A DNA stretch of 64,000 nucleotides, taken from contig NC_016622.1 of the NCBI RefSeq assembly GCF_000283655.1, positions 1,686,501 to 1,750,500 on the forward strand, given 5' to 3'. Positions 11,851 to 17,004 of the stretch are shown here, in pieces. The position numbers were made by a program, and so were the translations under genes. Source of the DNA: Azospirillum lipoferum 4B (GTDB taxonomy: Bacteria; Pseudomonadota; Alphaproteobacteria; Azospirillales; Azospirillaceae). Position 1 is the first letter of the stretch, and every line of letters begins with the position of its first letter. Under the pieces are notes generated by a model. That model had not been told where the DNA came from and did not search any database. It saw nothing but the letters and a program-made list of their open reading frames with translations.

Positions 11851-12594
11851 TCAGCGGCCGCCGCGATCCGGCCGCAGCGGCCCGGCCAGACACAGCAGCA
11901 GCGCTCCCAACAGCAGCCCGGCGGCCAGCCCGCCGGCATGGGCGCCCCATCCGACCTCCGCCAGTGGCGACCCGGCGGGCGGCGGCACCAGCGTCATCGC
12001 CGCGTTGAGTAGCGCGAAGACGACGACCGCTCCCTGCACCAGCCGCCGGGGAAGGCGGCGCGACAGCAGCCCGAAGCGCGGGCGCATCCACAGGAAGGCC
12101 CCCATCAGCGCGCAGATCGCCCCGCTCGCCCCGATCAGCGGCGCCATCCGGTCGGCGGCCAGCAGCCCCTCCGTCAGCGCCGCCGCCACCGTGCCGGCGA
12201 AGAACAGCAGCAGATAGCGCAGATGCCCGGCCTCGCGCTCCACCACGTCGCCCAGCAGCCACAGCACCGCCATGTTGGAGGTCAGGTGCGTCAGGTCGCC
12301 ATGGATCAGCACATGCCCGAACAGCCCGCGCCACAGGGCGGCGGTGGGCAGCGGCCCGGCCAGTTCGACCGTTCCGAAGAAATAGGCGGGGACGAAGGCA
12401 AAGGATTCGGGCGGAAGCCGCAGCACGAAGGCAAGGACGCACAGCAGGATGACGGTGCGGTTGGCATAGGGCGGAACCGCTGCGGCGGTGACCGGCCGCT
12501 TCCCGCCGCCCCTGCCCCGCTCCTGCCGATCCCCTGGCCGATCCCCTGGCCGATCCCCTGGCCGCTCCCCCGGCCGGTCCAGAGCCAGCGCCAT
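11851..12594 (-). CDS. Rhomboid-family intramembrane serine protease
   Basis: The 247-residue membrane protein has about six transmembrane helices. Rhomboid hallmarks are present: HVLIHGDLTHLTSN in TM2, GASGA with the catalytic Ser157, and GWGAHAGG with the catalytic His219. These proteases cut other membrane proteins within the bilayer; the substrates are unknown. The cytoplasmic N-terminus (about 8-24) is a repeat RPGD/RPGE made by a 12-bp tandem DNA repeat. The ATG at 12594, preceded by GGAGG, was chosen over a GTG at 12660. It stands alone, divergent from an enoyl-CoA hydratase. Confidence 0.9.
   Translation of the reverse strand: MALALDRPGERPGDRPGDRPGDRQERGRGGGKRPVTAAAVPPYANRTVILLCVLAFVLRLPPESFAFVPAYFFGTVELAGPLPTAALWRGLFGHVLIHGDLTHLTSNMAVLWLLGDVVEREAGHLRYLLLFFAGTVAAALTEGLLAADRMAPLIGASGAICALMGAFLWMRPRFGLLSRRLPRRLVQGAVVVFALLNAAMTLVPPPAGSPLAEVGWGAHAGGLAAGLLLGALLLCLAGPLRPDRGGR
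12528..12575. repeat. 12-bp tandem repeat inside the rhomboid gene
   Basis: Three exact copies of GATCCCCTGGCC (12528-12563) are followed by one copy with two changes. They are in frame and encode RPGD repeats in the N-terminal tail of the rhomboid protein. Copy number could vary between strains without a frameshift. Confidence 0.85.
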
Positions 12595-12827
12595 TCCCCG
12601 CCTCCGCCCTTCGGTCACGCCATGCCGGTCCCCAAGCGTTGCCGCGGCGATCGGTCTCACCCCAATGTAGGAAGGGGTATTGTGGAAGAACAGGCGTTTT
12701 CCGCAGCATCCGCCCCCTTCCTATACCGGTCGGACGGATTGGAGAGGCGCCCGCCAGCTGTCACAGTGGCTCTACCATCCGGCGAGGATCCCTCCGCCGG
12801 ACAATGACAACCGGGGAAGAAACGACC

Positions 12828-15137: not shown

Positions 15138-15254
15138 TGCCTGCCCCGCCCCTTGTCCAAAACTCTGCACCCGATGATACATAGGCATGCAACCGGTTCA
15201 ATTGGGGGAACTCCGGCATACGCCGCTAATCCAAAATATTCACAAACCACTGAT

Positions 15255-15284
15255 TTGACAGCAGTTGATAATTTTCAATAGAAT
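15255..15284 (+). promoter_or_regulatory. Strong sigma-70 type promoter pointing to the 15.5-kb micro-ORF
   Basis: TTGACA (15255-15260) and TAGAAT (15279-15284) are 18 bp apart on the plus strand, in an AT-rich patch. The only plus-strand gene candidate downstream is the micropeptide at 15536, so a transcript would carry a leader of about 245 nt. Nothing else with coding character is seen in 15138-15535. Confidence 0.55.
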
Positions 15285-15535
15285 GCAGCCTTCGCCCCGA
15301 CACGCTTTGGTGGAATGCCGCCGCCGCAAACGGTCGTCAGCGGGCCGAAACCATATTACTTCTTATGCGTAATTTATTTCCTTGAGCGGCAACGCATCCA
15401 TTTGCCTTCCCGGGGGGCCTCCCGCACGCAGCCACGCGCTACCCCGCCGCAATTGACACATGCGCAGGTTCCACATGGTGTTGCCGGGCCGGCAGGGATG
15501 TGTCCCGGCCGGCGATCCGAAAGGAGGTGACGCGA

Positions 15536-15625
15536 GTGAAGACGTTCCTGAAGTGGCTCGACCGCTTCTGGTTCAAGTTGAAGATCGAGTTCCAAGCCGG
15601 CTTCAACAAGGACCGGGATAGCTAA
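15536..15625 (+). CDS. Candidate cationic amphipathic micropeptide with occluded start
   Basis: The 29-residue ORF starts at GTG and begins MKTFLKWLDRFWFKLKIEF. It alternates aromatic and hydrophobic with basic residues, as in a membrane-active amphipathic helix; the tail is QAGFNKDRDS. The ribosome-binding site AAGGAGGTGA is a perfect anti-16S match, unusual for a chance ORF. A GC-rich hairpin follows the stop, and a 16-nt segment beyond it is exactly complementary to the ribosome-binding site and start. This fits a tightly controlled small protein, perhaps of type I toxin kind (inference). No named family is recognised. Confidence 0.6.
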   Translation: MKTFLKWLDRFWFKLKIEFQAGFNKDRDS

Positions 15626-15634
15626 GGGCCGACG

Positions 15635-15663
15635 GGCGGGGCCGGGAAACCGGCTCCGCCTTC
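15635..15663 (+). terminator. Hairpin after the cationic micropeptide gene
   Basis: GGCGGGGCCGG pairs with CCGGCTCCGCC (one G-T pair) around a GAAA tetraloop, and TTCAGG follows. There is no long T tract. Termination here would exclude the downstream complement of the ribosome-binding site, whereas read-through would include it. Confidence 0.6.
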
Positions 15664-15867
15664 AGGATGGAAACTCGCGTCACCTCCTGCCCACAAAGCT
15701 ACCATGGCCGCTGTGGAGTTCAAGGAGGCAGACGGACGGCACGATGCCACCCACCGGATTGCGGCAGCGATGGCGCACACCATTGAGAGGCGATTTTCCC
15801 GGAGTATCACGTCACCATACGTTCGCATGTTGATGTCCTGTATGGAATGGTTGTATTAATTCCAAGC

Positions 15868-17004
15868 ATGACACAACCGCGCCGCCCCTTGTCCGATGCC
15901 GAACGGCTCGACTGGATCCGCCTCATTCGCACCGAGAATGTGGGGCCGATCACCTTTCACCGCCTGCTGGAGCAGTATGGCAGTGCCCGCGCGGCGCTGG
16001 ACGCCCTGCCGGACTTGGCACGGCGGGGCGGGCGGACCAAACCGCTGCGCGTCGCTTCCAAGGCGGAGGCGGAGCGGGAGATGCAGGCGAACCGCCGCTT
16101 CGGCGCCCGCCTGATCTGCGCCTGTGAACCCGACTACCCCGAACCGCTGGCCGCGGTCGACGATGCGCCCCCGGTGATCTCGGTGGCGGGTCACGCCCAT
16201 CTGCTGAAACGGCGCGCGGTCGCCATCGTCGGCGCACGCAACGCCTCGCTGAACGCCAAGAAGTTCGCCGAGTCGCTGGCGCGGGAGCTTGGCGCCGCCG
16301 GGCTGCTGGTCGTTTCCGGCCTTGCCCGCGGCATCGACACCGCGGCCCATGCCGGCTCCATCGCCAGCGGAACCGCCGCGGTGCTGGCGGGCGGCATCGA
16401 CGTCGTCTATCCGCCGGAAAATGAAGGACTCTACCGCGACATCGTGGCGCAGGGCGTGGTGGTGGCGGAATGCGCCATCGGCACCCAGCCGCAGGCCCGC
16501 CATTTCCCCCGCCGCAACCGCCTGATCTCCGGCCTGTCGCTGGGCGTGCTGGTGGTGGAGGCGGCGTTGCGCTCCGGCTCGCTCATCACCGCGCGGATGG
16601 CGCTGGAACAGGGGCGGGAGGTGATGGCGGTTCCGGGATCTCCGCTCGACCCGCGCTGCCACGGCACCAACAACCTGCTGCGCCAGGGGGCGACGCTGGT
16701 GGAACGGGTCGACGACGTGCTGCACACCATCGAGAACCTGCGGCCGCCGACGCTGGCGGAACGGCCGCGCGACCTGTTCAGCGCCGCCGGACTGACCCCC
16801 GGCCCCGCCGCGGAACCGGACGAATCCGACCTTGAAAAGGCACGCGCCCTGGTCCTGGAAAACCTGGGCCCCTCGCCCGTCACCATTGACGAACTCGTCC
16901 GCGGGTGCCAATTGTCCGCTCCGGTGGTGCTGACCGTGGTTCTGGAACTTGAGCTTGCCGGCCGAGTCCAGCGTCTTCCCGGTCATCAGGTCTCTCTCGC
17001 CTGA
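15868..17004 (+). CDS. dprA: DNA-processing protein DprA
   Basis: DprA binds incoming single-stranded DNA and loads RecA during natural transformation. This 378-residue protein has an N-terminal SAM/HhH-like part (ERLDWIRLIRTENVGPITFHRL). It then has the Rossmann DprA core (about 105-310) with VAIVGARNASLNAKKFAESL, SGLARGIDTAAHAG and FPRRNRLISGLSLGVLVVEA. A C-terminal winged-helix domain (about 315-375) closes it. The ATG at 15868 gives normal length; an in-frame ATG seven codons upstream is possible. It is followed by topA on the same strand after about 46 bp, a common pairing. Confidence 0.95.
   Translation: MTQPRRPLSDAERLDWIRLIRTENVGPITFHRLLEQYGSARAALDALPDLARRGGRTKPLRVASKAEAEREMQANRRFGARLICACEPDYPEPLAAVDDAPPVISVAGHAHLLKRRAVAIVGARNASLNAKKFAESLARELGAAGLLVVSGLARGIDTAAHAGSIASGTAAVLAGGIDVVYPPENEGLYRDIVAQGVVVAECAIGTQPQARHFPRRNRLISGLSLGVLVVEAALRSGSLITARMALEQGREVMAVPGSPLDPRCHGTNNLLRQGATLVERVDDVLHTIENLRPPTLAERPRDLFSAAGLTPGPAAEPDESDLEKARALVLENLGPSPVTIDELVRGCQLSAPVVLTVVLELELAGRVQRLPGHQVSLA

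Follow-up and report, generated by a model that had tools for sequence, protein, structure and literature searches.

A conserved micropeptide unit with a long-range Shine-Dalgarno helix in Azospirillum, probably a phage-derived locus of type I toxin-antitoxin kind

We describe a unit of ~210 nt in Azospirillum lipoferum 4B in which the ribosome-binding site of a micropeptide ORF is matched by a distant anti-Shine-Dalgarno (anti-SD) segment beyond the ORF. We read it, with a probability of roughly 0.6, as a type I toxin-antitoxin-like locus of phage origin that would work like aapA/IsoA or hok/sok. The copy that we began with lies in a stretch of 64,000 nucleotides, called the window below, and all positions are counted from the first letter of that stretch. 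Its parts are as follows.

15453..15481, plus strand: presumed sense promoter read directly from the DNA, TTGACA, a 17-nt spacer and a weak -10, TGGTGT
15485..15519, plus strand: 5' hairpin ahead of the ribosome-binding site, present in the MFE fold and in the consensus structure, where columns 12-38 contain compensatory pairs
15521-15530, plus strand: Shine-Dalgarno (SD) sequence AAGGAGGTGA, by direct reading
15522..15537, plus strand: 5' arm of the long-range helix, spanning the SD and two of the three GTG bases
15536..15625, plus strand: GTG-started ORF of 29 codons, MKTFLKWLDRFWFKLKIEFQAGFNKDRDS, with TAA at 15623-15625, homologues elsewhere and conservative replacements in frame
15635..15660, plus strand: GC hairpin with a GAAA loop and no T tract, GGCGGGGCCGG-GAAA-CCGGCTCCGCC
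15673..15688, plus strand: 3' arm of the long-range helix, containing the anti-SD CACCTCCT
15696..15723, minus strand: antisense promoter, -35 TTGAAC (15718-15723), a 16-nt spacer and an extended -10, TGG-TAGCTT (15696-15701)
15484..15690, minus strand: putative antisense RNA across the 3' arm, hairpin and ORF, as expected from that promoter

A preliminary description of this DNA had reported the SD, the GTG-started ORF of 29 codons and an exact 16-nt inverted repeat, all of which were borne out. The arms are 16 nt each, 100% complementary and spaced 135 nt apart, and they form the only exact inverted repeat of at least 14 nt with a gap of 30-200 nt in the window. In 20 Markov-simulated windows there were no such repeats of 16 nt and a mean of 0.15 of 14 nt. 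The unit is flanked by a PAS/MCP chemotaxis-receptor-like gene and dprA, as identified with Pfam, and no Rfam family matched it at threshold. A consensus-like promoter, TTGACA-N18-TAGAAT (11/12), is found at 15255-15284 (plus strand), ~240 nt upstream of the unit and between it and the divergent chemotaxis-receptor-like gene, and could drive transcription into the unit. Elsewhere in the window, at 12488-12670, there is a short tandem repeat that can be read in ORFs of both strands (RSPGRSPGRSPG...) and that overlaps a 269-aa ORF on the minus strand.

The DNA from 15400 to 15860 matched 32 of the 45 genomes of the genus in 46 rows, of which 43 copies were retained once three fragments of ~30 nt had been dropped; the aligned set comprises 44 copies. 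Most of these alignments run from just ahead of the SD to slightly past the 3' arm. From 34 of 49 copies we built a covariance model, R1, whose E-values are rough. Of the 15 copies outside the model, 14 are close relatives of rows that were kept, among them L014, in which a single arm pair is mismatched; the fifteenth is the broken copy L063. The preliminary description had suggested looking for the unit across the same order, where R1 matched 34 of 82 genomes: 33 of the 45 in the genus and the genome of a metagenome-assembled (MAG) contig, L072 (G048, identical coordinates). When the exact two-arm pattern was sought in 84,980 genomes, it was found in 26 stretches, 21 from Azospirillum, two from 'Roseomonas genomospecies 6' and three from MAG contigs assigned to Rhodospirillales (L072), Alphaproteobacteria (L085) and Caulobacter (L091). 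The L085 and L091 contigs carry tandem copies, and tandem arrangements also occur within the genus.

The sole full-length R1 hit in a class sample of 385 genomes came from one Azospirillum. Four other hits covered the hairpin only; three of these (L099-L101) have no arm by eye, resemble ordinary terminators and were rejected, and the fourth is L102. A protein-profile search of the same class gave 2 of 385, the second at an E-value of 0.005 over 15 residues. Among relatives of the MAG behind L091 the only match in 61 genomes was that MAG itself, and the phylum sample gave 0 of 398, a result that shows little since that sample lacked any genome known to match. One plasmid record, from Azospirillum sp. 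TSH58, matched both the window unit and the unit of copy L069; GenBank phage records gave no match to the L069 unit.

The genes beside the unit vary and include dprA (window, L003), an Lhr-type helicase gene (L004, L013) and tamB (L067), a list that is partial because 14 of 20 flanking ORFs scanned had no Pfam match. In L003 the immediate neighbours of the unit are an enoyl-CoA hydratase gene and dprA; in the window the gene on the side away from dprA is the chemotaxis-receptor-like one. A role as the leader of a particular downstream gene was rejected, as contexts and orientations differ. Four copies are broken: L065 has an internal stop, and the start codon is missing from L002, L003 and L063. 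Tandem and broken copies are common among type I loci.

The preliminary description had proposed that the start site is hidden by long-range pairing and had suggested folding the region. In the predicted fold of the RNA from 15484 to 15700 both arms are fully paired; its energy is -125.1 kcal/mol, with z = -8.3 relative to 200 shuffled sequences. In the RNAalifold structure of all 44 copies there are 45 pairs, 17 of them with a compensatory change. Over the arms and hairpin of the 44 copies, 98.8% of cells were paired, compared with 39.1-50.1% when the alignment was slid, and changes on both sides of a pair occurred in 55 cells versus 18.3 in shuffles. Other counts were less telling: the number of pairs with a both-sided change (8) was reached by 15 of 500 shuffles and so stands out little, and the number of further pair types (21) was reached by 198 of 500 and does not stand out. 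An alignment of 34 rows that includes the MAG copies (33 distinct) behaved similarly, with 97.5% paired and 35 both-sided cells versus 12.7; there, 67 of 500 shuffles reached the count of both-sided pairs and 309 of 500 that of further pair types. A loss of the repeat in relatives that keep the ORF would have spoken against start-site hiding; the result was the opposite, with the pairing kept through compensatory changes. The arms occur in three main forms, GACGCGAGT/ACTCGCGTC, GACGCGCTT/AAGGCGCGTC and GATGCGCTT/AAGGCGCATC.

Because an inverted repeat in DNA looks alike on both strands, we counted G-U pairs against their mirror mismatch, A-C, which tells the strands apart. Over the 44 copies the hairpin has 70 G-U against 2 A-C, and the arms have 42 against 3; for the 33 distinct rows of the alignment with MAG copies the figures are 48 against 2 and 31 against 8, respectively. 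This excess indicates that it is the plus-strand (sense) RNA that has been selected to fold. The predicted probability that the SD is unpaired was below 0.1 in 40 of 43 full-length folds (L071 left out) and rose to a median of 0.31 in folds that lacked the 3' arm. For a transcript ending ~45 nt past the SD it was 0.26, and the nascent RNA may thus be protected by local folding, though less strongly. Covariation, strand-specific wobble and the folds together argue that, at the level of structure, the SD of the full-length mRNA is sequestered by the distant 3' anti-SD, and the start-site hiding envisaged earlier is thus supported.

For the ORF, we used 36 distinct chromosomal-type sequences, leaving out three copies with an adjoining XRE-family regulator gene (XRE-type) and the four broken ones. 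Stops were present in none of the 36 sequences in the ORF frame, in 35 in frame +1 and in 4 in frame +2. Single-base replacements were milder than expected in the ORF frame (BLOSUM -0.03 versus -0.62) and hardly milder in frame +1 (-0.92 versus -1.03) or frame +2 (-0.83 versus -0.99). Minus frame 0, which mirrors the ORF codons, showed a smaller effect (-0.48 versus -0.67). That frame is stop-free in 36 of 36 sequences, so openness alone does not exclude a minus-strand peptide; such a peptide was rejected on the alignment, where by eye no conserved start follows the SD-like arm of the minus strand. The ratio pN/pS was set aside as proof of coding, since it does not separate the ORF frame (0.58 in the full count, 0.55 for single changes) from frame +1 (0.58; frame +2, 2.04). 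Third codon positions of the ORF are not the most variable. Judged from the replacement pattern, the chromosomal copies have their 29-codon frame under constraint at the level of the protein.

ORF lengths across the unit are 22-35 aa, in keeping with the small proteins of type I toxin-antitoxin systems, and no Pfam, PHROG or NCBIfam family matched the three peptides that were tried. The peptides of the window, L085, L072 and the viral contig L139 are amphipathic rather than transmembrane, with maximal Kyte-Doolittle (KD) values of 0.14-0.56. Hydrophobic moments pointed to an N-terminal amphipathic helix and, after it, an alternating stretch; the guess of a helix plus a strand drawn from them found no support in the AlphaFold model of the L139 peptide, which at moderate confidence (pLDDT 72, from 8 sequences) is a single helix at 3-30.

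It could be supposed that the repeat acts at the level of DNA, as in a MITE-like or other palindromic element in which the ORF and the pairing arose by chance. The 16-nt inverted repeat at the ends and the presence of up to two matches per genome would suit such an element. However, G-U far exceeds A-C, replacements in the ORF frame are conservative, and conservation does not stop at the arms but takes in the 5' hairpin and the antisense promoter as well. On the wobble bias and the coding constraint we rejected the MITE or transposon reading, to which we give next to no credence.

The preliminary description had also raised a termination switch, in which transcription ending at the GC hairpin would leave the start open and read-through would close it. 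The position of the hairpin, between the ORF and the 3' arm in all 44 aligned copies, would allow this, and the hairpin was correctly described as having no T tract. However, none of the 44 copies has more than two T in a row within 12 nt downstream of the hairpin, and a scan of 15200-15900, including the region after the 3' arm, found no terminator-like site. The hairpin is kept as far off as the phage contig L163. A hairpin kept without a T tract fits a block to an exonuclease better, and the order of ORF, hairpin and 3' arm likewise fits removal of the 3' end better than a switch in termination, which we regard as very improbable.

The suggestion that an antisense RNA from the minus strand would cover the start has gained a conserved minus-strand promoter aimed at the unit. 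The pattern TTGnnn-N16-TAnnnT, 8-9 nt past the 3' arm, is present in 42 of the 44 copies (41 with a spacer of 16 nt and one with 15), with TG-n preceding the -10 in 40 of these; it is missing in L001 and L063. A best-score scan that included five MAG copies found the pattern in 41 of 46 non-XRE copies compared with 0.3% of 4000 random anchors drawn from the same loci (mean score 8.96 versus 5.62), a count that is not to be taken as a probability because the copies share ancestry. The letters of the spacer diverge and the hexamers and their spacing stay; many copies of group B have TTGACG-N16-TATTTT, and the MAG copies have a site with 17-nt spacing. In the window the antisense RNA is predicted to start near 15688-15690, where the 3' arm has its outer end, and would cover the ORF; it would also fold on itself using the same arms.

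Promoters for the sense RNA are less uniform. A consensus-like one, such as TTGGCA-N17-TATTCT, is present in 15 of the 44 copies, and many others have TTG at about the place of the -35 and no clear -10. The window, L001 and L002 fall outside the pattern, with TGGTGT at the -10 place, and because of this poor -10 the sense promoter of the window may be weak or lost. The window copy may therefore be decaying, considering also that the similar copies L002 and L003 lack a start codon and that L001 lacks the antisense promoter. L001, the closest match, keeps the SD and ORF, a combination hard to square with a potent toxin unless the sense promoter of L001 is inactive as well.

A search by tblastn with three XRE proteins found an XRE/HTH gene within 1.6 kb on either side in only three of the 44 copies, L069, L070 and L071. 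There the gene begins just past the 3' arm, and its product matches Pfam HTH_3 (4.2e-08 for L069, 2.3e-09 for L071). The same XRE-type unit is carried by the viral contigs L139-L142, with R1 scores of 114-124 bits. In L140 it is flanked on one side by packaging genes (terminase large subunit, portal) and on the other by replication genes (primase, helicase); in L141 a terminase gene adjoins it, and L139 and L142 have primase genes on the same contig. A palindrome lies between the -35 and -10 of the sense promoter, GGCGAAATGATTTCGCC in L139 and L141, CGAAATGATTTCG in L140 and GGCGAACCCTGTTCGCC in L142, and in the phages the XRE protein would probably bind it and repress that promoter. A palindromic operator in every copy was rejected, as only 11 of 48 exceed shuffles and the window's own does not. 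The DNA that follows the 3' arm in the window (ATGGCCGCTGTGGAGTTCAAG) agrees with the start of the phage XRE gene (ATGACCGCTGACGAGTTCAAG) at 18 of 21 places, from which the chromosomal copies look like phage units that have lost XRE. A decayed XRE-type unit (63 bits), with its arms and XRE start changed yet recognisable, lies at L137:910-1093; L138 looked like a chance match by eye and was rejected.

The phage units invite comparison with the acr-aca operons of phages, in which acr genes are under the control of Aca proteins (PMC9638941). On that model the unit would be a 'moron' operon with a small non-toxic effector (anti-defence or regulatory), an autorepressing HTH partner and translation held low by the RNA fold, and the chromosomal copies would be remnants. 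The phage-type copies, though not the others, resemble such operons in that a small phage ORF precedes an HTH gene, in the order SD, peptide, hairpin, arm and XRE behind a palindrome-bearing promoter, and the L069 XRE protein, besides its HTH_3 match, reaches Aca2_YdiL at 0.015, below the cut-off. However, the peptides are much shorter, at just 22-35 aa, and we know of no anti-CRISPR as short as that. The unit also differs in its RNA closure and its antisense promoter, which has no place in acr-aca logic and yet is kept in copies that lack XRE, and 41 of the 44 copies are without XRE within 1.6 kb on either side, most of them keeping the ORF. We consider an acr-aca-like operon unlikely.

Another possibility is a leader-peptide attenuator, in which translation of the peptide would open or close the fold and so control the XRE gene downstream. 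The ribosome-binding site of the phage XRE gene comes directly after the 3' arm, and the fold of L139 leaves it partly open (0.30) and the peptide SD closed (0.001). Against this, the ORF and fold persist in the 41 of 44 copies that have no XRE match nearby, in contexts as different as dprA, the Lhr-type helicase gene and tamB, and the peptide is wholly changed in the viral contig L163. Attenuation thus appears quite improbable, and we return to the reading of the unit as type I toxin-antitoxin-like.

A looser viral scan gave 26 stretches, among them L163 (R1, 85.3 bits, E = 2.8e-19). This contig contains the 5' hairpin, the SD, the GAAA hairpin, the anti-SD arm and an XRE gene (HTH_31, 3.8e-07), together with a promoter palindrome, AGCGTACAATGTACGCT, and, by reading, a minus-strand TTGAAC-N18-TACAAT. 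Its ORF, MKLLKLAILVALLILADTHAAW, encodes an unrelated 22-aa peptide that is strongly hydrophobic (KD 2.52 over 15 residues versus 0.14 for the window peptide), as seen in this single contig. Membrane toxins of type I are strongly hydrophobic. The earlier characterisation of the peptide as amphipathic and cationic thus holds for the window copy (net charge +3) and fails for the peptide that L163 carries in the same RNA frame. In the viral collection the hairpin-plus-arm pattern was found only in L140-L142 and L163. Four tRNA genes lie beside the unit at L163:1241-1701, on a viral contig of 53 kb.

Other stretches of the scan look alike in plan, not in sequence. At L149:1850-2030, SD and anti-SD arms surround a 25-aa peptide and are followed by a 58-aa protein with no Pfam match (R1, 19.8 bits). 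L152:5470-5750 and L156:4365-4645 contain tandem units with arms GGAGGTGAGGAGGT/ACCTCCTCACCTCC and peptides of 21-25 aa, scoring 26.2 bits at best. These unrelated phages may have reached the SD/anti-SD design independently. With less than even odds, the phage form could be a cassette that holds unrelated micropeptides in an ORF slot, which has the operator promoter, 5' hairpin and SD ahead of it and the GAAA hairpin, anti-SD arm, antisense promoter and XRE repressor gene behind it: a type I system of three layers, namely repressor, RNA closure and antisense RNA, with an exchangeable toxin, domesticated in Azospirillum without the repressor.

On the type I reading, a sense mRNA ending just past the arm would be ~210 nt long and would consist of the 5' hairpin, SD, ORF, GAAA hairpin and anti-SD arm. 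Once made, the 3' arm would pair with the SD, a pairing that covariation supports, and the full-length mRNA would be closed to translation. The SD would be freed by loss of this arm, for which trimming from the 3' end as far as the GAAA hairpin is the most plausible route, and the antisense RNA expected from the conserved promoter would silence any mRNA that had opened. The target of the peptide would be the cell itself, probably its membrane. In the phages the arm is internal, ahead of XRE, so simple 3' trimming would not apply unless the mRNA were first cut. Two further points weigh against this reading: the four window-like peptides named above do not look transmembrane, and the scan of the window found no terminator-like site downstream of the 3' arm. 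The chromosomal copies would have lost the XRE gene and kept the peptide, fold and antisense promoter.

The closest studied case that we found is aapA/IsoA of Helicobacter pylori, and we infer the same logic for the unit. In aapA3/IsoA3 there are a 30-aa peptide, a 225-nt mRNA and a cis-antisense RNA; a 5'-3' helix closes the mRNA as long as it is full-length, and the active form lacks the last 35 nt (PMC6733600). The predicted layout of the unit resembles this in a peptide of ~30 aa, an mRNA of ~210-225 nt, a long-distance SD/anti-SD helix, a 3' segment past the ORF that would have to be lost, a putative cis-antisense RNA and several chromosomal copies. The antisense promoter, however, is beyond the 3' arm here and inside the ORF in aapA; the Azospirillum-type unit has a GAAA hairpin between the ORF and the 3' arm, and the phage copies add XRE.

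The comparison with Hok-type control made in the preliminary description is also apt. In hok/sok, 3'-end processing and refolding raise the activity of the mRNA, and the antisense RNA binds near an SD (PMC8309996); the opening of the mRNA by loss of its 3' end and the antisense RNA would be shared with the unit. In bsrG/SR4 and yonT/SR6 of Bacillus, an antisense RNA overlaps the 3' end (PMC8309996; PMC5848175), and yonT/SR6 lies on a prophage. The unit differs from both in that its 3' arm is the lock on the SD and the predicted antisense RNA starts at the arm. In the open-licence literature searched, we found no paper that mentions Azospirillum, a type I toxin and antisense RNA together, which is weak evidence of novelty.

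The natural compensatory variants of the arms and the exchanged peptide would allow tests of how closed toxin mRNAs open. With a phage form, a domesticated form and a possible repressor layer, the unit would also allow tests of how antisense RNA and repressor interact, and of how a phage toxin may become a chromosomal gene.
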